Origin: a virus
Virus record (IMG/VR): IMGVR_UViG_3300032173_000020
Coordinates: 1 to 35,290 of that record
Strand: one strand, 5' to 3'
DNA length: 35,290 nucleotides
In this document: one piece after another, positions 1-35,290 of the stretch
How the letters are laid out: each line of letters opens with the position of its first letter
How positions within the stretch are numbered: the first letter of the stretch is position 1
Notes under the pieces: generated by a model
The model's database searches: none
What the model saw: the letters and a program-made list of their open reading frames with translations, nothing else
Told to the model about the DNA's origin: nothing
Translations under genes and position numbers: made by a program

Positions 1-86
1 CCCGGCAACTTTTTTTGAAGCGCCTGAAGAGGCTTAACGCAGCCGAAACCGCAGCAATGCGGTAGCGCGGATTGGTCCCAGCCGGG
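1..86 (+). ncRNA. Type I hammerhead ribozyme (copy next to intI)
   Basis: This is an exact copy of the ribozyme at 35071-35156. The core reads CTGAAGA (24-30), stem II GGCT/AGCC (31-34/41-44), GAA (45-47), and stem III from 48 to 63 capped by a GCAA tetraloop. The predicted cut is after A64 in a G-U-A triplet. Stem I pairs 20-23 with 65-68, with an outer CCCGGC/GCCGGG pairing (1-6/81-86). Cleavage of a rightward transcript would leave intI on an RNA with a 5'-OH leader of about 112 nt. The 5' part of this cassette lies at the far end of the window (35196-35290), so the unit spans the ends. Core residues are seen directly; activity is inferred. Confidence 0.87.
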
Positions 87-125
87 GAATAACTGACCAT
101 CAGGGGGCACGCCTTAAACAGATAA

Positions 126-176
126 CAACCTTTAGACCGCCAAAGTGGCTACTTAACCAACCAGGAGGGGGATGGT
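126..176 (-). other. attI: Integron attI site (platform recombination site)
   Basis: The proximal cassette ends exactly at position 125. Read on the minus strand the junction is GGTTG^TTATCT, a G^TT core of the kind IntI cuts. The repeat shared with the second cassette ends at the same core: only C126 and A127 also match, then the sequences diverge. The site lies within 51 bp of the intI start. It holds a short inverted repeat GCCA-AAG-TGGC (139-149) that could contribute to integrase binding. Its position upstream of intI, with cassettes extending away, is the canonical integron geometry. The limits of attI beyond the core are not determined. Confidence 0.72.
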
Positions 177-1157
177 ATGGGAAAAACCGAGGCATTAAAA
201 CGATACTATGAAACGCTCAGAATATTACGCCGCAGCAAGAGCACGGTCAGCACCTATATTTCATGGGTCAGACAGTTTATAGACTTCCTTCCCAGCTGCA
301 GCCAGGAAACCACCCGCGAGGAACGGATCAGCAAGTTCTTGTCTCGCCTGGTGATTAAAAACAACATATCCGCGACCACCCAAAAGCAGGCCCTTTGTGC
401 GATCATTGGCTTTTATAAGCTGGTCTTAAAAGAGCAGGTCGGGGATCTAACATTCTCCCGATCGTCCCGCCCGAAGTTTCTGCCATCTGTATTTAGCCGT
501 GACGAGGCCTGGCGCATACTCGACGTTCTGCACGGTGTCAGCTGGATATGGGCCGCGTTCTTCTACGGCTGCGGACTTCGTCTTGAAGAGTGCTGCCAGC
601 TCCGCGTTCTCGACGTGGATCTAGACCGACGTCAGGTAAACGTCAGGCGCGGAAAAGGCAGCAAAGACCGCGTGGTCCCGCTCCCGGAAATGCTGGTCGA
701 ACCACTACGCAAGCACCTGCGCACGCTCAAGATCGAGCATGAATCATACTCCGCGCGCCGCGTGGCCGTATCTCTACCCGACGCCCTAGACCGCAAATAT
801 CCCGCCGCTCCGTTCTCCTGGGAATGGTTCTGGTTATTCCCTGCCTCCGGTCCATGCAAAGACCCGAAGTGGGGCGGAAAACTATACCATATCCATCACA
901 GCGCGGTACAGAAACGGATAGGCAGGGCGATCCGAGACGCGAAGATACCGAAAAAAGCAGGCTGTCACACCTTCCGCCATTCGTTCGCTACCCATTGGCT
1001 TGAAGGTGCCGAGGGTTCGCACGAGTCCGCGCTGCTGCGATTGCAGCGCCTCATGGGTCACAGCGACCCAAAAACCACCATGATATATCTGCACCTGCTG
1101 AAACCGAAAACCGACGTTCCGAGTCCTCTGGACATGAGAGAACTGATCGCGGCTTGA
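177..1157 (+). CDS. intI: Integron integrase IntI (tyrosine recombinase)
   Basis: A 326-aa tyrosine recombinase that inserts and excises gene cassettes at attI and attC. The N-terminal SAM-like DNA-binding domain covers about residues 8-90, and the catalytic domain about 100-305. R135 (GCGLRLEE), K160 (RGKGSKDR), H264 and R267 (CHTFRHSF), H295 (GHSD) and the nucleophile Y304 (TTMIYLH) are all present. The integron-specific insertion, absent from XerC/D and phage integrases, is clear at about 199-245: LPDALDRKYP followed by FSWEWFWLFP and the HIHH region. The C-terminus ends VPSPLD, as in IntI proteins. The segment before GHSD (277-290) is a few residues longer than in IntI1. The start is ATG 177, with AGGAGG at 163-168. 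The cassette array lies immediately upstream across the window ends. No strong dedicated promoter is visible; readthrough from the array would first be cut by the hammerhead. Confidence 0.94.
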   Translation: MGKTEALKRYYETLRILRRSKSTVSTYISWVRQFIDFLPSCSQETTREERISKFLSRLVIKNNISATTQKQALCAIIGFYKLVLKEQVGDLTFSRSSRPKFLPSVFSRDEAWRILDVLHGVSWIWAAFFYGCGLRLEECCQLRVLDVDLDRRQVNVRRGKGSKDRVVPLPEMLVEPLRKHLRTLKIEHESYSARRVAVSLPDALDRKYPAAPFSWEWFWLFPASGPCKDPKWGGKLYHIHHSAVQKRIGRAIRDAKIPKKAGCHTFRHSFATHWLEGAEGSHESALLRLQRLMGHSDPKTTMIYLHLLKPKTDVPSPLDMRELIAA

Positions 1158-1207: not shown

Positions 1208-2356
1208 GTGACAGGAACAATTCGCTGCAACAGTTGCGCGGTTGCCATGAACGACCGGACCGGTTCGTGCCCGAAGTGTGGACGCGCGCAATGCCATATT
1301 GTTCTGCATTGGCAAGGGACCACGCGCAGACTTTTTAAAGACGTGCGCGGCGTCGGATTCGGTTACATGACCGCCTACGATCAGCTGTTCGCCATGAACC
1401 GAGAGATCCGCCAGCGGGCATTTTCTATTTCCGATTGGCAGTCAGCCAAAGTAAAAGAACGACGCCTCGACCAGCAGCTCGACAAATGGCTCGACCAGGT
1501 AAAGACCGAGGTCGATCAAAACGAGTTATCGTTCGGGACCTATCACTCATACCGCAGCTATGTACAAAATCACATTTCCCCAAAGATCGGCCACCTGGAC
1601 ATTCGGGAAATCCGATACGCCGATCTTGAAGCGTTTAAGGATAGTTTGCCACGGTCCCTCAAGATAAGAACAAAGCGCACGATCGTGAATATCCTGCACA
1701 CCGCAATGACCTGGACCTGGCGCAAGGGAATAATCGAGGCCATGCCGCCGTTCCCCGTGGTCAAGGGTAACGACGCCGCGCCAAAGATCGCCCTGACCAT
1801 GGTGGACCAGGCCGCAGCCCTGGCGCTGATCCCGGTCGAGCACCGGGACGTTTTCGAATTCGAGACCGAGACCGGCCTGAGGCCAGGCGAGACCTGCGCG
1901 CTCAAGATAAAAGATATTGATTTTAACACATGCACCATGACCGTGCAGCGCACGTTCACCATGCGCCATTTAAGAGAGTCTGACAAGGAAGGACACAAGA
2001 AGGCCGTGCCCTTGTCCCGGCGCGCCATGGATCTGGCAAGGGCGCACGCTGCGGGCCGGTTTCCCGATGATTGGCTGTTCATTAACCCGGCGACCGGGTC
2101 CCACTATGCTGTTCAGCGCCTGGGCCTCTACTGGAAAAAATACACGAACCTGCCCTGCAGTCACTACGAAGGAACCCGGCACTCGTTCTGCACGCAGATC
2201 GTCGAGGTCGCCGATCGCTCCGCTGCCCAGGATCTCATGCGGCACGCCGACGGCAGGAGCACGGACCTATACATACACAACCGGACCGAATATCTGCGCG
2301 ACGTGATCGAAAAACGCGGGAATGTTTCAGAGATGAAAAAGAAAAGGAAAACATAG
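1208..2356 (+). CDS. int: Phage site-specific integrase (tyrosine recombinase)
   Basis: A 382-aa lambda-type integrase responsible for integration at a tRNA gene. The N-terminus has a zinc-ribbon-like pair of motifs (CNSC, about 7-10, and CPKC, about 21-24). A core-binding SAM-like domain follows (about 75-180), then the catalytic domain (about 195-365). Visible active-site residues are R225 (TGLRPGE), K264, R324 (TRHSF), H346 (RHAD) and Y355 (DLYIH). The usual H of the HxxR motif is E321 here, with an H two residues earlier (H319). I chose GTG 1208 because of the preceding AGGGGGG and because upstream residues look unlike coding sequence. It is unrelated in detail to IntI and sits directly 5' of attP, the normal arrangement for temperate phages. 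Confidence 0.9.
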   Translation: MTGTIRCNSCAVAMNDRTGSCPKCGRAQCHIVLHWQGTTRRLFKDVRGVGFGYMTAYDQLFAMNREIRQRAFSISDWQSAKVKERRLDQQLDKWLDQVKTEVDQNELSFGTYHSYRSYVQNHISPKIGHLDIREIRYADLEAFKDSLPRSLKIRTKRTIVNILHTAMTWTWRKGIIEAMPPFPVVKGNDAAPKIALTMVDQAAALALIPVEHRDVFEFETETGLRPGETCALKIKDIDFNTCTMTVQRTFTMRHLRESDKEGHKKAVPLSRRAMDLARAHAAGRFPDDWLFINPATGSHYAVQRLGLYWKKYTNLPCSHYEGTRHSFCTQIVEVADRSAAQDLMRHADGRSTDLYIHNRTEYLRDVIEKRGNVSEMKKKRKT

Positions 2357-2357
2357 T

Positions 2358-2501
2358 TCTTACAGTAGCCGTGCAGTATGGGTCTATAAGTAATTGATTT
2401 ATTATCCTGACTAGCGAGTTCGATTCTCACGCTCTCCCGCCATATTGTTTAATGATTTCAATGTTAAAGGCTTTAAAATCTCTTACAGTAGTCTTACAGT
2501 A
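2358..2501. other. attP: Phage attachment site attP with integrase arm sites
   Basis: The core at about 2412-2443 is the 3' end of a tRNA gene: a T-arm-like GAGTTCGATTCTC segment, an acceptor strand CTCTCCC, then G and an encoded CCA. It resembles tRNA-Ser. No 5' half of a tRNA precedes it, so it is a phage copy of the target. Three copies of TCTTACAGTA (2358-2367, 2481-2490, 2492-2501) flank the core on both sides and look like arm-type integrase sites. Arms on both sides support an intact attP rather than attL or attR. Confidence 0.78.
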
Positions 2502-13603: not shown

Positions 13604-14071
13604 TTATACCCTCCTGTTTAGGAGCTTTTCAAAGTTTCTCTCTGTTTCCGTAAATCCCATACGGGTTAGTAGTGGGCTGAAATCGTGCTGCGTGTTTACG
13701 TGGATCATCATTCTATGGACTCCGAGCTTTTTCAGTTCCTGTTCAGCGAACGCGATCATTTTCATGCCTGCGCGGCCTTTTCGGTATTCGCTCTTGATGA
13801 ATAAAACATCATTCATGGCAACGATGCAATCCTGATAATGCAGGTGCGGCATGATGAACGAGATATAGTACCCGATCAGGTCTCCGTCGTTCCTGGCTGT
13901 TACGACATGGACCACGCCAGCCTGGTCAAGCAATTTATACTGGTTATAATCGGGATTAAGCGGAAACTGATCTTTGTACAGCGCGATCTCTTGCCAATGC
14001 GCTTCGAGCAGTGGCTTGATCTCGTCGAGGATATCCGTCACCCGCTCCACCTGATAGACAATATCAGTCAT
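13604..14071 (-). CDS. GNAT-family N-acetyltransferase
   Basis: A 155-aa protein with the GNAT fold. A beta-strand pair leads to the acetyl-CoA loop EYRKGRAGMKMIAFAEQEL (about 95-113, R-x-x-G-x-A/G variant). The C-terminal beta6-beta7 region contains LLTRMGF. Stand-alone GNAT genes between the tail-nozzle gene and the internal virion genes are common in podoviruses. The substrate is unknown, possibly a virion or host protein. Its start overlaps the stop of the tail gene by 8 bp. Confidence 0.8.
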   Translation of the reverse strand: MTDIVYQVERVTDILDEIKPLLEAHWQEIALYKDQFPLNPDYNQYKLLDQAGVVHVVTARNDGDLIGYYISFIMPHLHYQDCIVAMNDVLFIKSEYRKGRAGMKMIAFAEQELKKLGVHRMMIHVNTQHDFSPLLTRMGFTETERNFEKLLNRRV

Positions 14072-16775
14072 TGACCGTCACCCGCTTAATGATCGCCAAA
14101 ACCGTGAACGGCATAGGCTGGGTCCGTTTGATCTCTACCTGACCCGCCGAGACTCCCCAGCCTATAGCTGTCACTTTCTTGTCACCTGTGAAGGCCGATG
14201 CTCCGGTGCTGATGGCCTGGCCGTTGATGGTACAGCCAATAGACTCATGCATCCGGACCGTGATCTCGCTGACGCTGACCGAGGTGCGGCCCTGGGTTGT
14301 GCCGTCTCCGACCGGGAGCTCGACCGGTAGGTCGTGGATCTCTGCTTCGAAATGCAGGCCGATCTCTACCGCCTTGGCTGCCGTGGGCAGGACGATCTGG
14401 CCGCTTGTTACGGTCATTGGGGTAAGGTCCACGCCGTCGGCGATCACGTCCACGGTCTTGCCTTCCAGGTGCGATAGGCCGGTCCAGGTGGTCTTGCCTG
14501 TGCCGTCGGTGCCAGTGACGGCGCTGTCCGTGTTCAGAGTGGGGTCGAACAGCTCCATGTAGGTGTAGGCTGTGCCGCCGATGGTCCGCTCGACGGTTGC
14601 ATATATCTGGTCCTTGAGGCCTTCCTGGACCACGCAGAGGCCCTTGTAGAGGCCATCTGTTTCGTACCAGGAGAACGCTACAACCTCTTGTTCCCGGTCG
14701 TAGGCGACACGGGCGATCTTGCCGTCTGCGGTGAGGATATAGACCGTGCTGTTCGGCTCGATGGCGTGGTACATCTCGACGATACCGCTGGTGAGCAGGT
14801 GCTCGCTCATGATACAGACGTTCGGGAATTCGTAGGCGTCAGAGACCAGCTTGTACGACATGCCCCTGACGCGCTTGCCCGAGCGCGTGGAGAATACCAG
14901 CTCTCCGCCGATCGGTAGGGGCCGGATACCGTCTCTTGATCCGTACCGCCCCACAGCCTTGATCTGGACATTCGACGGGGTGAGCGGATTCGCTCCGCCG
15001 GACATGGTGATCTCTTTGTCATTGGTGAGCAGGACAACCTGGCTGGTCGTGATCATCTGGTTGATGCTCGACGCGGCTGCCGCGGGTACGAATTCGAACG
15101 GGTCGGAGTCGAGCGCGCCAAGGACGAAGTTGTATATATTGTTAGTTTCCGAGCCCCACACGGTCTGAGGGTGTTTCGACGTGCGGGCCAGGAGCATCCG
15201 CTGTTCAAAGAACGTGAGCGCTGCGGGATAGCCGGTCGAGCCCCACGGCACGCGGCCCGCCGTGATCGTGCCGGTGGCGGGCGTGGCGGGTGATCCGCTG
15301 ACGGTATAGGTGAAGGTCCGGTCGTCCACGACCGTGATCACGAACGTGCCGTTGTAGTCGGTTTGGGTTGCGCCTGTGATCGTGACAATGGTTCCCGATT
15401 TCCATCCGTGGTATTCTATTGTTCCAGCTGTGACAACTTGGCCAGACCTGGTAAGACCTTCATAACCGAAGTTACCATCTGACGTTATAATATAGGCGTC
15501 TGAACCATCGTGGATACCAACAGCAATAAGCTGACTTCCTGACCAGCAAATTGAATTTAAACCTTTATTTTTTGGGTCTGAACGTTCAGTCCATGAAATA
15601 CCATTTGGTGATGTAATGATGACTTTATTTGAACCTAAAGAATTATTCCCAACACCAATAAATTGAGTTCCTGTCCAGCATATTGAATTTATCTGTGCAT
15701 TTCTCGGGTTTGCTTGTTCAGTCCAGGTTATGCCATCGGCTGACGTGATAATATAAGTATCAGGAACGCCAAACACCTCAACTCCCATAGCTACGAGTAG
15801 CGAGCCTGACCAGCAAACAGAATAAAGAAACGCTCTCTTCGGATTTGCCTGTTCAGTCCAGGTGACCCCATTTGTCGATGTTAGAATATATGCGTCCGTA
15901 ACGCCATCATCATAACCAACTGCAACTAATTGAGTGCTTGCCCAGCAAATAGATGTTAATGTAATATTCTTCGGATTTGCCCGCTCTGTCCAGGTTGTTC
16001 CATCGGTCGATGTTAAAATATATGCGTCCGTACCGTCCGCAGCACCGACCGCGACAAACATAGTGCCAGACCAGCAAATAGAATTAAGTGCTATGTTTTT
16101 TGCTACAGAAGGCGCCCGCTCTGTCCAGGTTGTTCCATCGGTCGATGTTAAAATATATGCGTCCGTACCGTCCGCAGCACCGACCGCGACAAACATAGTG
16201 CCAGACCAGCAAATAGAACTAAGTGCTATGTTTCTATTATTAATCCTTTCGGTCCAATAAGACTGTGCAATATTTCTTACTGTCTCAAACACAAACGGCA
16301 CGTTCGTGATCGCCCAGGACGTGTCTGTCGTGCGCGTGAGCGTACACGGCGGAAAGTCCGGGTGCACCAGGTACAGCTGATTATTAAACTGCTCGTACTT
16401 GATCAGCGATAGATTTGCGCTGGTGAACGGGCTGGTGAGTTCGTACGGGGTTGACCCTCCGGTGACGATCAGCGCGCCGTCGAGGTAGAACCTGATCTTA
16501 TTGTCGCTGCGGAATTCGACCACGTAGCCCTTGAGGCTGGCCGGGGTTGTATCGGTCCGGAAGATGACAAACGGGATGGTCCGGGTTGTGATGCTTGCCC
16601 CGGCGTTGTAGACAAACTTCTTGCCCGCGCGCACCGTGGCCCCGCCCGTGACCATAATATCAACGTTCTTTGCCGTCTTGAGCCCGGACTGATACCGGGG
16701 AATGCCTACCCTGCCGTATAGCTTCGGGTCGAGCTCTCCGCCGGTGAAGTCCGATTGTATTACCATTGCTTTCAT
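14064..16775 (-). CDS. Tail tubular protein B (nozzle) with inserted six-repeat propeller
   Basis: A 903-aa tail nozzle protein. The N-terminus (FTGGELDPKLYGRVGIPRY...) is the typical start of podovirus gp12-like nozzle proteins. Residues about 173-440 carry six repeats of roughly 44 aa with the pattern WTER/Q..N..L.SICWSG....VAVG....DAYI.TS.DG.T, which would form a beta-propeller. A beta-rich segment (YNGTFVITVVDDRTFTYT) follows, and then the nozzle fold resumes. The repeat region is visibly more AT-rich than the flanks. Two adjacent repeats are almost identical at the DNA level, indicating recent duplication. The insertion probably forms an external receptor- or glycan-binding head. ATG 16775 is used; ATG 16766 is possible. 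Confidence 0.8.
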   Translation of the reverse strand: MKAMVIQSDFTGGELDPKLYGRVGIPRYQSGLKTAKNVDIMVTGGATVRAGKKFVYNAGASITTRTIPFVIFRTDTTPASLKGYVVEFRSDNKIRFYLDGALIVTGGSTPYELTSPFTSANLSLIKYEQFNNQLYLVHPDFPPCTLTRTTDTSWAITNVPFVFETVRNIAQSYWTERINNRNIALSSICWSGTMFVAVGAADGTDAYILTSTDGTTWTERAPSVAKNIALNSICWSGTMFVAVGAADGTDAYILTSTDGTTWTERANPKNITLTSICWASTQLVAVGYDDGVTDAYILTSTNGVTWTEQANPKRAFLYSVCWSGSLLVAMGVEVFGVPDTYIITSADGITWTEQANPRNAQINSICWTGTQFIGVGNNSLGSNKVIITSPNGISWTERSDPKNKGLNSICWSGSQLIAVGIHDGSDAYIITSDGNFGYEGLTRSGQVVTAGTIEYHGWKSGTIVTITGATQTDYNGTFVITVVDDRTFTYTVSGSPATPATGTITAGRVPWGSTGYPAALTFFEQRMLLARTSKHPQTVWGSETNNIYNFVLGALDSDPFEFVPAAAASSINQMITTSQVVLLTNDKEITMSGGANPLTPSNVQIKAVGRYGSRDGIRPLPIGGELVFSTRSGKRVRGMSYKLVSDAYEFPNVCIMSEHLLTSGIVEMYHAIEPNSTVYILTADGKIARVAYDREQEVVAFSWYETDGLYKGLCVVQEGLKDQIYATVERTIGGTAYTYMELFDPTLNTDSAVTGTDGTGKTTWTGLSHLEGKTVDVIADGVDLTPMTVTSGQIVLPTAAKAVEIGLHFEAEIHDLPVELPVGDGTTQGRTSVSVSEITVRMHESIGCTINGQAISTGASAFTGDKKVTAIGWGVSAGQVEIKRTQPMPFTVLAIIKRVTVND
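15470..16262 (-). repeat. Six intragenic propeller repeats in the tail nozzle gene
   Basis: Six units of about 130 bp encode the repeats. The blocks at about 15976-16103 and 16112-16232 are nearly identical over about 110 bp (for instance both contain CCATCGGTCGATGTTAAAAT). The other four have diverged while keeping the amino-acid pattern. High AT content sets this region apart from the GC-rich rest of the gene. Confidence 0.85.
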
Positions 16776-22811: not shown

Positions 22812-23699
22812 CTACGCCGAAACTATCTCATTGCAAGCGATCTCAACGACCTTTACGTCTTCCGTGCGGACCGCGCCCACGCTCTGCTTGCTGTATGCGT
22901 ACGGGAGAAACTTCTTATCCGGACGTTCGCCGAGCTTCGTGGTGATATCCTTGCCGATCCCGAGGGTCACGCCGCTCTTGCAGTAGGCGTAGCAGAACCG
23001 CTCAAACGCGGTCTTCGGCAGGAGTTGCGTACGCACCCAGGTGAATCCCATCCATGTGTCTACCTCGCCAGCCACAAGCGCCTTTACCGAATTGTAATCC
23101 GTGCTCGTAAACTTGTCGATGTTCAGCATGTTTTCGAGCTGTTCCATGGTGTAGACCATCACCAGCTCGTCGTTTGGATCGTCTTCGTTGAACGCTTCTG
23201 CCCTGCCCAGGATGCCGCGAGCAGCGATCACCTTGGCAATGGTCAAACCCGTGCCGCCGTTGGCGATCTTCTGCGCTGCGGGAAGAACTACCGTTGTGGC
23301 AGAGCTGTCCTGACCCTGACGTGCAGATCCGCCGAGGGCCGCGATAATGACCTTGTCTTTCCTGCGCATGAGCGAGGCGACTCCGCCCGCGATCGTCGGA
23401 GACGTGGGGTCGGCCAGCATCTTGAGCTGGTCCATATCGTCCATGAGCTTGCCCCACTCCCAGTCTGACAGGTCGATCCAGCGGCGCTCGAAGTTGTCCG
23501 CCATATGCGGGCTGTCTCCGTAGCGCTCAGTCCGCTGCTGGTCCTCTTCCGCGCCGACCCGATCAACGGACTTTGATGAGCCGACGATGTTGCTGTCAAC
23601 CAGAACGTGTTTTTCAAGGCGAGACTTCAGCTGCTGACTTTTCAGTTTGAAGTTGTCCGCAAATTGCTTTACGAATGCTTCCGTGATTTCATTGGCCAT
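22812..23699 (-). CDS. Major capsid protein
   Basis: A 295-aa protein between the scaffold and decoration genes. The N-terminus (ANEITEAFVKQFADNFKLKSQQ) is helical. Residues about 60-110 contain the pattern RYGDSPHMADNFERRWIDLSDWEWGKLMDD, and the C-terminal half has the P-domain-like sequence WMGFTWVRTQLLP. These fit the family of podovirus capsid proteins of about 300 aa seen in phiKMV-like and related phages. GGGAGG lies before ATG 23699. Confidence 0.82.
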   Translation of the reverse strand: MANEITEAFVKQFADNFKLKSQQLKSRLEKHVLVDSNIVGSSKSVDRVGAEEDQQRTERYGDSPHMADNFERRWIDLSDWEWGKLMDDMDQLKMLADPTSPTIAGGVASLMRRKDKVIIAALGGSARQGQDSSATTVVLPAAQKIANGGTGLTIAKVIAARGILGRAEAFNEDDPNDELVMVYTMEQLENMLNIDKFTSTDYNSVKALVAGEVDTWMGFTWVRTQLLPKTAFERFCYAYCKSGVTLGIGKDITTKLGERPDKKFLPYAYSKQSVGAVRTEDVKVVEIACNEIVSA

Positions 23700-24833: not shown

Positions 24834-25061
24834 TCATCTTTGGCCCTCCGCGCATTTTTGCATGATGAACAGTAAAACCTGGCGCTGACCTTCAAGCACC
24901 AGCGTGGCGTTCGGATCAACCGGGCTTGATATGCTGGTCCTATCGTAAAACCTCATACTTAATTCTTGAAGTATATCTTGTCCGTCCTGGTGTCCCTGAA
25001 AAATATTGAAATAGATTTTCGCGGGTAAGCCCGTCGGTTCTTTCTCCTGGTTGTTAGGCAT
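24834..25061 (-). CDS. Bbp19-like phage protein
   Basis: A 75-aa protein with the layout of the Bbp19-like family, which typically lies beside the portal gene in podoviruses. A central helix (QDGQDILQELSMRFYDRTS) is followed by an acidic turn and a helix (EGQRQVLLFIMQKC). The start overlaps the portal stop by 8 bp. Its molecular role is unknown. Confidence 0.6.
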   Translation of the reverse strand: MPNNQEKEPTGLPAKIYFNIFQGHQDGQDILQELSMRFYDRTSISSPVDPNATLVLEGQRQVLLFIMQKCAEGQR

Positions 25062-26700
25062 TCGCTCCGCTCCCCTTTGCCGCCATCTCCATGGCCTGCT
25101 GTTGCTCCACCTGCTTCTGCTGTTGCGCCTGTGCCTGCTTTATTTGATCTATTCGTTTCTGGCGATTCTGCTTCACGATATCTTCGTCAATGATCAGCTT
25201 CGCAGGCACACCGAGCAGGTCCGCTTTCACCCTGACAGCCTCGTCCCAATCGTAGTTGTCGAGCGGTCCGGGGATCTGCAGCTTGACCAGGGACCCCAGC
25301 ATACCTTCGATCCGATCCATGGCAGCCACGTCGTCCAGCTTCTGCGCCTTTGCAAGCGGCGATTGGAACGTGACATTTGACATTCTACCTGCAATAGCCT
25401 CGGGCGGAATTCCGAGCACCGAGTTGTCTTTTGCACGTACAGCGATCCCGAAACAGCGGTTTACAACCTGGATCATGTACTCTGATTGCAAACGGCCATA
25501 CATGGGGCCTAGCAGCTGTCGGATGATCTGCGCCCGCATATGCACTTCCGTCGCGGTCATGGCCGGACCCTGGTCAGGGTGCAGCTGATCAGAAAGCAGG
25601 GTAGCCTTGATCTGCCCCTGTAAGTCTTTTATTTCGAGCGCTGCCACGTCAAACCTGCCAGACGGCTGCAGCGGAAAGAAATTATCCTTTGAAGTCATAA
25701 ACACGATCTTGCGAGGTCCGACCTTGATGGTCTTCGGGTTCAAAACTCCATCATCAACAGCACCCCACATACCCGCTATTGCCAGATCAGCATTAGAAAG
25801 CACATATAATTTTACTTCGTTCACGGTCAGGTGATCCGGCAGCGCGTCGTCAACGATCCCGAGCGAATACACGCTGCCCGGTATCGGCATCCACCTCGGC
25901 ACCACGACCGGCATCTCGTTGTAACCAGCCCGACGCAAAAACTTCTTGGTCTTTATGTCTACGTGGTCCGAGGCGATCGGAAGAGTTATCACATCTTTCG
26001 GGTCAACCTTTCGCGGATAGATCGCCCACAGTATCTCGACCGGTTCGTCCGGCTTTTCGATCGCGTTCTTTTTGGTTTCGTCGCTGCACTCGTCGCCATA
26101 TTCTTTGAAAGCCTGCTCTGCGGTCAGCTTCAAAACCCTGTAAACCGTGTCGATCATGCCCTTGCCCGTGCTGTCCGAAAAGTAGCACGACGCCAAAGGC
26201 CAGAGCGAGAAGTTGTACAGCTTTCCCTCGTTTGCATTGCCCGGCTCGATGTACATCGGGAACATGCCCGCGATCACGTAGTCGATGAAAGACTCATACC
26301 CGGCAGTATCAAAATTGCAGTTGTGTATGTTTTTCCAGATAGTGTCAGACGCATTGTCCAGCCACTTCTTGCTTTCGTCGTCGTCAACGTTGATCACGGA
26401 TTGGCTGAACCAGCGGCTGTTTGCAGGAGTAAGACCGGAGAAAAGAGCGGACGCCAACATGCGGCTTGAGTTGCGGAGCGTGCTATCGTAGATCCTGGAG
26501 TTCTTGCCAGCAGCGGACGAGGCCGCGCTGTCTGCTGTTGCGCTGTCGTTAGCGATCAGCTCACCGCGTAGCGGGTAGGTGTTGTCATACGCTTTTTTCC
26601 AGGGCGTTTCGACCAGCTGCCGTTTGGTTTTGAGCGTTTCAAGACGCTTCACATGCTGGTCCGGTGTAATAGTAATCGGTTTTTTATTTTTATCGTTCAC
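25054..26700 (-). CDS. Portal (head-tail connector) protein
   Basis: A 548-aa T7 gp8-like connector that forms the dodecameric vertex ring. Typical sequence blocks are SRIYDSTLRNSSRMLASALFSGLTPANSRWF (about 68-98), VLWAIYPRK-type beta segments, VVPRWMPIPGSVYSLGI, and GPAMTATEVHMRAQIIRQLLGPMYGRLQSEY (the clip/wing helices, about 385-415). The last 35 residues are a Gln-rich tail. It is preceded by the small terminase with an 11-bp overlap. Confidence 0.9.
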   Translation of the reverse strand: MNDKNKKPITITPDQHVKRLETLKTKRQLVETPWKKAYDNTYPLRGELIANDSATADSAASSAAGKNSRIYDSTLRNSSRMLASALFSGLTPANSRWFSQSVINVDDDESKKWLDNASDTIWKNIHNCNFDTAGYESFIDYVIAGMFPMYIEPGNANEGKLYNFSLWPLASCYFSDSTGKGMIDTVYRVLKLTAEQAFKEYGDECSDETKKNAIEKPDEPVEILWAIYPRKVDPKDVITLPIASDHVDIKTKKFLRRAGYNEMPVVVPRWMPIPGSVYSLGIVDDALPDHLTVNEVKLYVLSNADLAIAGMWGAVDDGVLNPKTIKVGPRKIVFMTSKDNFFPLQPSGRFDVAALEIKDLQGQIKATLLSDQLHPDQGPAMTATEVHMRAQIIRQLLGPMYGRLQSEYMIQVVNRCFGIAVRAKDNSVLGIPPEAIAGRMSNVTFQSPLAKAQKLDDVAAMDRIEGMLGSLVKLQIPGPLDNYDWDEAVRVKADLLGVPAKLIIDEDIVKQNRQKRIDQIKQAQAQQQKQVEQQQAMEMAAKGSGANA

Positions 26701-32560: not shown

Positions 32561-32618
32561 TCATTACGCTGAGCTGTGCTGCAAGCGCAGCGCAGACAGC
32601 ACGAGCGTCTCGTTAGAT
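32561..32618 (-). other. attC: attC site 1 (distal end of the array)
   Basis: Arms ACGCTGAGCT-GTGCTG and CAGCAC-G-AGCG pair with one extrahelical G in the right arm. The right R box is GTTAGAT (32612-32618), a perfect GTTRRRY. The left box reads TCATTAC, so the AAC is changed to TAC. In the inferred orientation (minus strand) the left box is R', so this terminal site may be impaired. It closes cassette 6 (32567-33241). Confidence 0.72.
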
Positions 32619-32650: not shown

Positions 32651-33241
32651 ATGCCGACAGGATATACAGCAACATTGATGGAAAAGGGCCAGACGTTTCA
32701 GGAATTTATCATGGGGTGTGCCCGTGCTTTTGGTGCTCTTATAGAGATGCGCGATAGCCCGTACGATGCGCCGATCCCTGATAAGTTTGAACCGTCAGAC
32801 TATGACACGAAACGGCTCATTGAATCACGCGAGACACTGGCAAAGCTCAAGGCAATGACGGACGCGGAAAAAGAAGCCTTTGGGCAGGCAAAAAAAGTCA
32901 CAGATATTCAGCGCATCGAGCAATGGCTTGAAAAGGACCGAGCGCAGAACAAGCGACTTGATGATATGTATGCACAGGTCCAGTCGTGGAATCCTCCGAC
33001 CAACGATCACCGAGGGCTAAAAGACTTCATGTTACAGCAAATCAGCATCAGCAAAAACGGCGTGGATTATATTCAAAATTCATTGGCCGAGGCAACCGAG
33101 AAACCATCCATGGCGTACTATGTGGCCGCTGTATCGGAAGCCGCACGAAGCATCAAATACCACACGGAAGAGAATGCCAAGGAAATCGAGCGCGTCAATG
33201 GCCGATCAGAGTGGGTGTCACAGTTGAGGGCAAGTATCTAA
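32651..33241 (+). CDS. Cassette 6 protein, conserved hypothetical
   Basis: A 196-aa helical protein. The N-terminus (TATLMEKGQTFQEFIMGCARAFGALIEMRDSP, about 6-37) resembles a recurrent hypothetical family I associate with cassettes and mobile DNA. A charged helical region follows (about 60-120), then a helical end. AAGGAG lies nine bases before ATG 32651. The stop TAA is part of the attC-2 R box (ATCTAAC). Function unknown. The ORF is inverted relative to the cassette orientation. Confidence 0.65.
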   Translation: MPTGYTATLMEKGQTFQEFIMGCARAFGALIEMRDSPYDAPIPDKFEPSDYDTKRLIESRETLAKLKAMTDAEKEAFGQAKKVTDIQRIEQWLEKDRAQNKRLDDMYAQVQSWNPPTNDHRGLKDFMLQQISISKNGVDYIQNSLAEATEKPSMAYYVAAVSEAARSIKYHTEENAKEIERVNGRSEWVSQLRASI

Positions 33242-33294
33242 CGCTGCGCTGTGGGGCGCGGGGTGTGCGTCCCACACGAGCGGCATGGTTAGGA
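33236..33294 (-). other. attC: attC site 2
   Basis: The left box is ATCTAAC (33236-33242), i.e. GTTAGAT on the minus strand, a perfect R'. The right box is GTTAGGA (33288-33294). GCGCT-GTG-GGG pairs with CCC-A-CAC-G-AGC, giving extrahelical A and G in the right arm. The site joins cassettes 5 and 6. It shares ACGCTG...GCTGTG and CACGAGCG segments with attC-1. Confidence 0.8.
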
Positions 33295-33299
33295 CTGAT

Positions 33300-33446
33300 A
33301 TGAATCGACGATCAATATGCTTTTTCGGGTACTCCTGTCCAAACGAGTGCGACAACTGCGACGAATATGAAACGATTGACCCCGTATACGGACAATACGG
33401 AACTGACCATTACAACGAGATGATGAGGAATGAAAATGACAGATAA
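33300..33446 (+). CDS. Cassette 5 small Cys-rich protein
   Basis: A 48-aa ORF with a cysteine cluster (SICFFGYSCPNECDNCDEYE, about 5-24) suggestive of metal binding, and a polar tail. The ribosome-binding AGGA (33291-33294) belongs to the attC R box GTTAGGA, five bases before ATG 33300. It overlaps the next ORF by a few bases. Function unknown. Confidence 0.5.
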   Translation: MNRRSICFFGYSCPNECDNCDEYETIDPVYGQYGTDHYNEMMRNENDR

Positions 33447-33744
33447 CGAGATAAATAAAATCATTGCAAAAAAGATTATGAGCGTCGAATGGTGTGAAAA
33501 ACTGCCCTGTTTCGCAGAGGATAGGCCGAATTACATGGAAGAAAACTTTTCATATTTCCGCATGGTAAAACGGCTTGTCAGTTCTGGATATTGGTTTGAT
33601 TTTCACCGAATACTGCAAGCAAAGTATCCTGCCGGAATGGTAACTGTTCCGATAAGCGCATGGATGATTGATTTGCTTATGAACAATCAACGGCTATTCT
33701 GCTTCGAGTTGGCATTATTTTTATCGGACAGCGGAAAGTCCTAA
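33436..33744 (+). CDS. Cassette 5 protein, unknown function
   Basis: A 102-aa protein from ATG 33436 (AGGA six bases upstream; ATG 33430 would add two residues). It is mixed helical with aromatic residues (NYMEENFSYFRMVKRLVSSGYWFDFHRIL) and a hydrophobic C-terminal part. It overlaps the preceding ORF, so the two form a mini-operon inside one cassette. Its stop TAA lies in the attC-3 box TCCTAAC. No family is recognised. Confidence 0.55.
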   Translation: MTDNEINKIIAKKIMSVEWCEKLPCFAEDRPNYMEENFSYFRMVKRLVSSGYWFDFHRILQAKYPAGMVTVPISAWMIDLLMNNQRLFCFELALFLSDSGKS

Positions 33745-33797
33745 CGCCAGGATGAGCCCCGCGCTTCTTAGCGGGGGACTCGATCCGTTGGTTGGAG
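33739..33797 (-). other. attC: attC site 3
   Basis: The left box is TCCTAAC (33739-33745) and the right box GTTGGAG (33791-33797). GAT-GAG-CCCCGC pairs with GCGGGG-GA-CTC-G-ATC, with an extrahelical G between CTC and ATC in the right arm. The loop is GCTTCTTA or a subset. It joins cassettes 4 and 5. Confidence 0.78.
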
Positions 33798-33799
33798 TT

Positions 33800-34171
33800 T
33801 TATTTTGTGTTTTTCTTTAATGCTTCTACTAAAAGGTTATCTTGATGGGGAGGCAATTCAAAACTATGCAACATTTTTGGAGCAACGGGCGCATATTGCT
33901 TAAGGATTATTGCGATTTTCTTATCGTAAAGAGTAAAAATATCATTAACCGTATTTGTAAGTTCTTTTTCACTCCGTTTGTTGATTTCCGCGATCTCGTT
34001 TTTATACTTTTTGTGAAGCGTATCAATTTCAGAAAGGACATTGCGGAACTTCTCATTAGTTACATTGAGCGTAATAAGAGTTTTGATGTAATGGTACGTA
34101 CCCAAGAATATTGCAGAAATGACGGTAATAGACACGCCAATAACAATAGGATTGGACAGGTCAATTGTCAT
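33800..34171 (-). CDS. Cassette 4 membrane-anchored coiled-coil protein
   Basis: A 123-aa protein with one N-terminal membrane helix (about 9-31, IVIGVSITVISAIFLGTYHYI). A charged coiled coil follows (about 40-80, LSEIDTLHKKYKNEIAEINKRSEKEL), with a polar tail. AAGGAG lies upstream of ATG 34171. This is the only cassette ORF in the canonical orientation, downstream of attI and ending next to its own attC (attC-3). It is AT-rich. Function unknown. Confidence 0.65.
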   Translation of the reverse strand: MTIDLSNPIVIGVSITVISAIFLGTYHYIKTLITLNVTNEKFRNVLSEIDTLHKKYKNEIAEINKRSEKELTNTVNDIFTLYDKKIAIILKQYAPVAPKMLHSFELPPHQDNLLVEALKKNTK

Positions 34172-34243: not shown

Positions 34244-34300
34244 TTCCAACGCGGTGCTCAGGCGCGGCGTAGCCGTCGCGCTGGAGCAACCTGGTTATAC
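34244..34300 (-). other. attC: attC site 4
   Basis: The left box is TTCCAAC (34244-34250) and the right box GTTATAC (34294-34300). GGT-GCTC-AG pairs with CT-G-GAGC-A-ACC, with extrahelical G and A in the right arm and a two-base unpaired central spacer. It joins cassettes 3 and 4. Confidence 0.8.
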
Positions 34301-34311
34301 GAGGTTTGGAC

Positions 34312-34971
34312 TTGAAAAAGTACCGAACAATTTTAGCCGATCCTCCTTGGGACTACGCAGGTAAAACGCCTCCATGGAGGTCTACGTCAGAGCAAACATA
34401 TAAACTCATGCCGCTTGATGATATATGCGCTATCCCAGTATCTGAATGGTCAACGGCTGACGCACATCTTTACTTATGGTCCGTGTTGCCCATGATGCGA
34501 GAGGCGTATGAGGTTGTGGAGGCGTGGGGTTTCACGCCGGAAACATTACTAACATGGTGTAAGCCTGGGCCGGGCCTTGGTGGTGGGTTCAGAGGGAATA
34601 CGGAACATTTGATCGTAGCAAGACGCGGCTGGTCATCAGTAAATCCGACCTGCGATATATGCGGCGGGCGGGCGCGTGGTATTAAAAAATGCGGCTGTGA
34701 AACCCCAGTGTGGCGCGTTAAGGGGAAATTGCTTGAGGAATCGGACGCGCAGCGACAATCATTCATTACGACGGCAAAAGGGACGTGGTACTCCGAACCA
34801 CGACGAGAACACAGCGAGAAGCCGGAAATTTTCATAAATCTCATTGAGCAAATGTCACTGGGTCCATACCTGGAATTATTTGCACGGCCACAGTCTCCGA
34901 TGTTTCCGAAGCGCGACGGATGGGACGTTTGGGGAAACGAAGTGCAGAGCGATATAGATTTTATCGCATAA
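34312..34971 (+). CDS. MT-A70-like adenine DNA methyltransferase (cassette 3)
   Basis: A protein of about 219 aa with the catalytic motif ADPPWDY (about 8-14) and the downstream helper segment ADAHLYLWSVLPMM. The AdoMet-related motif region lies near the C-terminus (EHSEKPEIFINLIEQMS, GPYLELFARP). A Cys-rich insertion (CDICGGRARGIKKCGC) in the middle could bind zinc. N6-adenine methylation of DNA is the likely reaction, protecting phage DNA from restriction. The start TTG 34312 has GAGG seven bases upstream; TTG 34306 is possible. The stop TAA is in the attC-5 box GCATAAC. The ORF runs against the cassette orientation. Confidence 0.82.
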   Translation: MKKYRTILADPPWDYAGKTPPWRSTSEQTYKLMPLDDICAIPVSEWSTADAHLYLWSVLPMMREAYEVVEAWGFTPETLLTWCKPGPGLGGGFRGNTEHLIVARRGWSSVNPTCDICGGRARGIKKCGCETPVWRVKGKLLEESDAQRQSFITTAKGTWYSEPRREHSEKPEIFINLIEQMSLGPYLELFARPQSPMFPKRDGWDVWGNEVQSDIDFIA

Positions 34972-35023
34972 CACCAAAATGACGCGCAAGCGTAGCGCGT
35001 CGCTGTCGATTTTATGGTTATCT
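34966..35023 (-). other. attC: attC site 5
   Basis: The left box is GCATAAC (34966-34972) and the right box GTTATCT (35017-35023). AAAAT-GAC-GCG pairs with CGC-T-GTC-G-ATTTT, so the two extrahelical bases are T (inner) and G (outer) on the + strand. These are the same identities and order as in Vibrio cholerae VCR bottom strands. It joins cassettes 2 and 3. Confidence 0.85.
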
Positions 35024-35195
35024 GTTTAAGGCGTGGGTCGTCAAAGTGCCCCTGTGCAGACGACATCTGGCCCGGCAACTTTTTTTGAAGCGCCTGAAGA
35101 GGCTTAACGCAGCCGAAACCGCAGCAATGCGGTAGCGCGGATTGGTCCCAGCCGGGGAATAACTGACCATCAGGGGGCACGCCTTAAACAGATAA
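34972..35195 (-). mobile_element. 224-bp ORF-less cassette 2 carrying a hammerhead ribozyme
   Basis: An exact copy of cassette 1. It has no ORF above about 40 codons. From left to right on the + strand it contains the attC hairpin, a GTCGTC/GACGAC hairpin (35037-35064), the hammerhead (35071-35156) and an end segment. Its end, CACGCCTTAAACAGATAA, is the complement of the sequence after the R box, giving a 19-bp inverted repeat GTTATCTGTTTAAGGCGTG around the cassette interior (35017-35035 and 35178-35196). Confidence 0.82.
35071..35156 (+). ncRNA. Type I hammerhead ribozyme (cassette 2)
   Basis: All core positions are present: C3-A9 as CTGAAGA (35094-35100), G10.1-C11.1 at the base of stem II GGCT/AGCC (35101-35104/35111-35114, loop TAACGC), GAA (35115-35117), A15.1-U16.1 (35118/35133), and stem III of six pairs closed by GCAA (35124-35127). 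Cleavage should be after A35134 (GUA triplet). Stem I GCGC/GCGC (35090-35093/35135-35138) is open toward an internal loop and an outer CCCGGC/GCCGGG helix, so this is topologically type I. Self-cleavage is inferred from the known family; it acts on + strand RNA. Confidence 0.88.
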
Positions 35196-35247
35196 CACCA
35201 AAATGACGCGCAAGCGTAGCGCGTCGCTGTCGATTTTATGGTTATCT
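35190..35247 (-). other. attC: attC site 6
   Basis: Identical to attC-5 in its interior. Both R boxes are now fully complementary (AGATAAC and GTTATCT), and the complementarity extends outward through 19 bp (CACGCCTTAAACAGATAAC against GTTATCTGTTTAAGGCGTG), giving a stem-loop of about 82 nt. It joins cassettes 1 and 2. Confidence 0.85.
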
Positions 35248-35290
35248 GTTTAAGGCGTGGGTCGTCAAAGTGCCCCTGTGCAGACGACAT

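Follow-up and report, generated by a model that had tools for sequence, protein, structure and literature searches.

The 35,290-base stretch of DNA analyzed here (the window), an IMG/VR virus record, carries a complete integron, most of whose cassette genes are inverted relative to their attC sites and read toward intI. The reading we favor, at a probability of about 0.8, is a working integron adapted to phage life, in which attC and attI have canonical polarity, the inverted cassettes would be read by a phage operon, and the accessory genes would be swappable. Judged by its sequence, this is a real, phage-adapted integron variant, the recombination and expression of which are putative. IntI, attI, attC sites, their polarity, the gene orientation, core-exact cassette ends, and, in many contigs, the phage context are shown by the data. 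With moderate confidence, we further propose a phage-specific integron class that would have its own IntI lineage, its own attI, and a private, polarity-inverted cassette pool read by the phage operon. Such a class would occur across tailed phages that are unrelated to one another, including some of Geobacteraceae and relatives, with anti-restriction methyltransferases and other accessory genes exchanged by site-specific recombination.

The carrier is a temperate tailed phage

The remainder of the window belongs to a podovirus-like temperate phage. All the genes by which a temperate tailed phage is recognized (terminase, head, head-tail adaptor, and integrase) are present, and further phage genes include a tail protein, an endolysin, and repressor-like genes.

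1208..2356, plus strand: phage integrase, separate from IntI (phrog_1, 4e-38)
2409..2442, plus strand: tRNA-3'-end-like stretch read from the sequence, candidate attP core of the phage integrase
2680..4296, minus strand: terminase large subunit (phrog_38, 4e-57)
22812..23699, minus strand: major head protein (phrog_3437, 2.5e-82)
25054..26700, minus strand: head-tail adaptor (phrog_332, 8e-120)

The stretch at 2409 to 2442 is probably the attP core of the phage integrase; it had no match in 76 Geobacteraceae genomes. Within the tail protein gene (14064 to 16775), tandem repeats of about 132 to 135 bp occupy 15517 to 16233, and two neighboring units are 99% identical. With IntI, attI, six attCs, phage genes, and a separate integrase in place, the preliminary description of a temperate phage genome that contains a complete integron is borne out.

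The first 127 and the last 99 nt of the contig both recur within the array, and joining 35192-35290, the bases CTGG, and 1-127 gives an exact 224-bp unit, the contig being without those four bases. Since the unit is rebuilt across the ends, the contig ends join through a tandem repeat, which fixes no copy number for this cassette (cassette X below), and the internal array junction could derive from an excised cassette circle instead of a tandem copy. A chimeric assembly is unlikely as the source of the integron itself because many independent contigs have a like arrangement.

An integron integrase belonging to a phage-type clade

177..1157, plus strand: intI, integron integrase (tyrosine recombinase) of the phage-type clade, 326 aa (TIGR02249, 2a3v, tree)

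In the profile search, the protein encoded at 177 to 1157 scored 292.5 bits against TIGR02249, above the NCBIfam cut-off of 265, and by this NCBI criterion the ORF encodes a true integron integrase. Its closest solved structure is Vibrio cholerae IntI4 (2a3v, E 2e-51), with an alignment that spans the IntI-specific insertion LPDALDRKYPAAPFSWEWFWLFPA of the window IntI. The catalytic set R135, K160, H264, R267, H295, and Y304 is complete and does not vary when the protein is aligned with five other phage IntIs. The profile match and the two alignments uphold the earlier claim of an intI with the integron-specific insertion and full catalytic residues.

Scans for relatives of the window IntI yielded 22 in viral contigs and 23 in bacterial assemblies, the closest of the latter in Geobacteraceae and other deltaproteobacterial metagenome-assembled genomes (MAGs). 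A tree was built from 29 phage-type IntIs (viral and prophage-like MAG contigs) and 61 bacterial or mobile IntIs, drawn partly from 395 Geobacter-phylum and 143 Sedimenticola-class genomes; L008 and L009, tyrosine recombinases under the family cut-off, were left out. The 29 phage-type IntIs, the window IntI included, form one side of a branch with 100/100 support, apart from the 61 sampled bacterial and mobile sequences, in a clade that is partly selected, as its loci were found by similarity to the window IntI and most contigs are fragments. The window IntI is neither nested among the sampled host or class 1 IntIs nor nearly identical to any of them, and the segment preceding the GH motif is longer in the phage-type IntIs than in the sampled bacterial ones.

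Of the 20 loci tested, 19 have an ORF for a terminase, portal, head protease, or primase no more than a few kilobases from intI. The carrier families differ (terminases phrog_38, 2, 979, and 15; portals phrog 113 and 21), which indicates that phages unrelated to one another carry the module. A phage whose terminase is 59% related to that of the window has a different integrase and no integron; thus, the integron is accessory. As a side observation, one Geobacteraceae MAG (G009, contigs C27 and C22) encodes two IntIs, a bacterial-type one at 351 bits and a phage-type one at 294 bits, and the two types of system may meet in one cell.

Relation to known integrons

The preliminary description took the whole platform to be undescribed in phages. 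This was refuted by Qi et al. 2023 (PMC9892861), who described temperate phages with complete integrons and virulent phages with CALINs, with Vibrio phages p16/p42, Shewanella M16-3, and P1 L-II as examples. In that work, attCs from virulent phages were functional in an attC x attI1 assay, methyltransferase cargo was present in phage integrons, and each intact IntI either came from the host (95% to S. oneidensis for M16-3, 75% to V. cholerae for Vibrio) or was of class 1 (PMC9892861). Those integrons resemble the one studied here in having a full platform or attC arrays in phage genomes and in the methyltransferase cargo. They differ in the origin of IntI, since here the integrase forms a clade of its own, is found in many unrelated phages, and is accompanied by inverted cassette genes.

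Sedentary chromosomal integrons (Vibrio, Shewanella, and Desulfobacterota) share the IntI architecture, an attI upstream of a divergent intI, and the attC polarity, whereas their genes are parallel to attC in our controls (16:2) and the sampled IntIs are without the longer segment before the GH motif. The integrase of class 1 integrons, IntI1, is about 40% identical and follows the same recombination logic, but the window IntI falls far below the cut-off of the IntI1-type model NF011946 (211 versus 435 bits). Class 1 integrons are carried by transposons and plasmids, in contrast to the phage carrier here, and no resistance genes were found in the cargo. Another IntI-like recombinase in a tailed phage, the "xerD" of virus Rctr41k (KX853513), is 36% identical, but it branches outside the phage-type clade, and no attC match was present within the 11.6 kb examined. 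A search of the open-access literature, which excludes subscription journals and preprints, returned no earlier description of an IntI clade specific to phages, nor of cassettes that are inverted as a rule. Such a clade, spread over unrelated phages, and cassette genes inverted relative to attC both look new.

These comparisons bear on the possibility that a host chromosomal integron was accidentally acquired by, or misassembled onto, a single phage. Such an origin would fit the published phage integrons of Vibrio anguillarum and Shewanella, whose IntIs are host-like (PMC9892861), and bacterial IntIs are common in the likely hosts (139 of 395 Geobacter-phylum genomes). Nevertheless, the clade of the window IntI stands apart from all sampled bacterial IntIs, the integrase recurs in phage contigs of many metagenomes with unrelated terminases, and the cassette genes are oriented differently from those of bacterial arrays (see below). 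We regard this explanation as largely refuted and improbable, even though it is the strongest competitor of the phage-adapted integron.

The attI site and six attC sites

122..160, minus strand: attI docking site, core G/TTATCT (cut G/TT), with a conserved block toward intI (25-locus alignment)
35190..35247, minus strand: attC of the attI-proximal copy of cassette X (covariance models R1 and R2)
34966..35023, minus strand: attC of the second copy of cassette X (R1 and R2)
34244..34300, minus strand: attC of the MT-A70 cassette (R2)
33739..33797, minus strand: attC (R1 and R2)
33236..33294, minus strand: attC (R1 and R2)
32561..32618, minus strand: attC at the far array end, with a degenerate R' box (GTAATGA) (R2)

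The attI core lies at about 122 to 128, and the conserved block, common to the window and 24 other loci, reaches to about 160. Across the 25 loci, this block of about 35 nt just upstream of intI ends exactly at the core (AAC on the plus strand, G/TT on the minus strand), which agrees with the earlier placement of an attI core adjoining intI; past the core, the sequence varies between phages. A conserved block with a variable flank is the pattern expected of an attI into which different cassettes have been inserted.

A search of the window against Rfam gave no match, and since attC apparently has no curated family there, covariance models were purpose-built. Known bacterial attCs, 17 in number and taken from integrons of class 1, Shewanella, Vibrio, and Sedimenticola, were shortened in their long central loops and used to build model R1. 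When it was run on the whole window, its top four matches fell on attCs of the array, each on the minus strand, and only the best reached significance on its own (E 0.014). Applied to 25 phage-type sources, R1 returned 25 matches at E <= 1.5 (best 1e-5), every one of them (25/25) on the strand opposite to intI. Model R2, a refinement trained on the R1 matches in phage-type loci, detected six attCs and no more in the window, each on the minus strand (E 9e-8 to 0.005), four of which were absent from its training set; the next match was at chance level (E 3.9). With R2, 65 of 65 matches over 32 sources fell on the strand opposite to intI. In each window cassette, the 5' core was compared with its own R'' box: the two agree exactly in four of six and differ by one change in the other two. 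The six attCs reported from the sequence at the outset were thus recovered by the covariance search, but the first two of the six cassettes described there are copies of one 224-bp noncoding cassette. A home-made fold-and-pattern attC detector was also tried and proved too noisy for deciding polarity.

Cassette traffic and array polarity

As matching of a core to its own R'' box is symmetric and so blind to polarity, duplicated and shared cassettes were used to read it. In locus L011, one cassette occurs at two places (718/721 identical), and loci L016 and L021, on different phage contigs, have a common cassette at 85% identity. In both cases, the homology stops exactly at core sites and includes the attI-distal hairpin, and the 224-bp cassette X of the window is duplicated in like manner, ending at the core next to intI. 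Because duplicated and shared cassettes end at cores with the hairpin on the attI-distal side, attC polarity is read as canonical, with attI beside intI and the array extending away from it. Such core-exact ends imply that cassette recombination is likely functional, and they lend support to the earlier proposal of a platform that captures and shuffles cassettes. In the mechanism we propose, IntI would recombine folded single-stranded attC hairpins with the double-stranded attI upstream of intI, cassettes would enter at attI, and the array would grow away from intI, as in bacteria. The integrase could in this manner duplicate, reorder, and swap accessory-gene cassettes.

The same traffic weighs against a slightly less probable alternative than host acquisition, namely, that IntI chiefly serves lysogeny by integrating the phage into integron sites of the host, the array being a by-product. 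A V. anguillarum prophage does excise at attC sites (PMC9892861), which speaks for such a role, as does the position of intI next to int in the window. Yet the window has a separate integrase with a tRNA-like attP candidate, and multicassette arrays with duplicated and shared cassettes show that it is cassettes that move. The least likely alternative, that polarity was misread and that canonical plus-strand cassettes face a true attI at the far end, the intI-side block being a dead end, would suit the gene directions taken alone, but it conflicts with the R1 matches on the minus strand only, with the hairpin on the gene's 5' side in duplicated and shared cassettes, with a window duplicate that ends at the core adjoining intI, and with a conserved block that stops exactly at G/TT.

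Cassette genes are inverted relative to attC

With canonical polarity as the preferred reading, gene direction was gauged by the longest ORF of each cassette body, a crude measure. Over all phage-type loci, 48 of these ORFs run toward intI, 3 run away from it, and 8 are ambiguous. Two of the 48 are probable mis-calls (in the L011 duplicate, the minus-strand ORF looks more natural); among the three running away, that of L032 is probably mis-called (PHROGs favors the plus-strand ORF), and another is a spurious short ORF in the noncoding cassette X. Correction leaves about 47 toward versus 3 away (~47/50). By the same measure, control arrays (chromosomal, class 1, and Vibrio) have 16 genes parallel and 2 antiparallel to attC, and the two sets differ at a Fisher p of 7e-11, computed on the raw, uncorrected counts.

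In the window, three of the four gene-bearing cassettes are antiparallel to attC, so that the order of gene then attC is not kept; a gene parallel to attC is typical of integrons, yet it is no defining criterion. Of 48 plus-strand cassette ORFs, 35 use as their stop codon the TAA of the core TAAC. Identified phage genes near intI are codirectional with intI in nearly all loci, the portal of L004 being the exception. The match of gene direction to the phage operon suggests that upstream phage transcription, and not a Pc promoter, probably serves the array. Most cassette genes sit back to front relative to attC, typically ending in the core TAA, and on the simplest reading they would be expressed by transcription entering through the upstream phage genes, not from a Pc of the platform.

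Cassette orientation is usually regarded as fixed; these arrays suggest that it can follow the direction of the transcription serving them. The inverted polarity also suggests that bacterial integrons have little access to the cassette pool, since a cassette that passed from one kind of integron to the other would be antisense to the promoter there.

Cassette cargo

34968..35191, minus strand: cassette X, 224 bp, noncoding, in tandem (second copy, 35192-35290 + CTGG + 1-121)
34306..34971, plus strand: MT-A70/phage DNA methyltransferase cassette gene, inverted relative to attC (PF05063, 1.5e-15; phrog_359, 1.7e-45)
33800..34171, minus strand: cassette gene in canonical orientation, 123 aa, by eye with an apparent N-terminal membrane segment and a coiled coil
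33430..33744, plus strand: cassette gene (ORF) with no assigned function, inverted
32651..33241, plus strand: cassette gene of a phage family (phrog_8905, PHROGs), inverted

The window cargo looks like phage genes, given the assignment of the MT-A70 gene to phrog_359 and of the gene at 32651 to phrog_8905. When 54 cassette proteins were searched against Pfam, the recognizable cargo was mostly DNA methyltransferases (N6_N4_Mtase, 5; C-5 methylase, 3; MT-A70, 1; Dam, 1; with possible overlaps between these counts), and PADLOC concurs. The array may accordingly be pictured as a store of phage accessory genes, chiefly DNA methyltransferases, that could shield phage DNA from restriction.

Phage gene exchange is known as loose, mostly homology-driven mosaicism. 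If the phage-adapted integron is what it appears to be, an inherited, dedicated apparatus for swapping cassettes, present in several phage lineages, would give anti-defense genes a separate path of exchange.

Two further kinds of cargo were noticed. A family with an AHPPC motif recurs in different phages (L016, 4562-5182; L021, 189-809; L012, 238-756; L027, 7350-7901); it corresponds to phrog_12600 in the two members tested and may be methyltransferase-like. The proteins of L013 (947-1666) and L035 (4961-5713) resemble, by eye, the PAPS-reductase/ATP-pyrophosphatase family.

Comparison of the array DNA with named phages gave a sole match of 57 bp, which is noncoding. It lies in part of cassette X (window positions 35017-35196), where 57 nt recur at 85 to 88% between genes of an Enterobacter phage and, at the same identity, in 15 E. 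coli genomes, in prophage regions in the two looked at. An Aquitalea plasmid contains a relative of cassette X at 73% over 142 nt, adjacent to three tRNAs and to terminase genes. The E. coli copies have parts that look circularly permuted, and weak, sub-threshold hammerhead ribozyme matches lie just upstream of them. Cassette X has no match in Rfam, and the fold of its window RNA gives a z of -2.1; it is possibly a novel structured RNA carried as a cassette.
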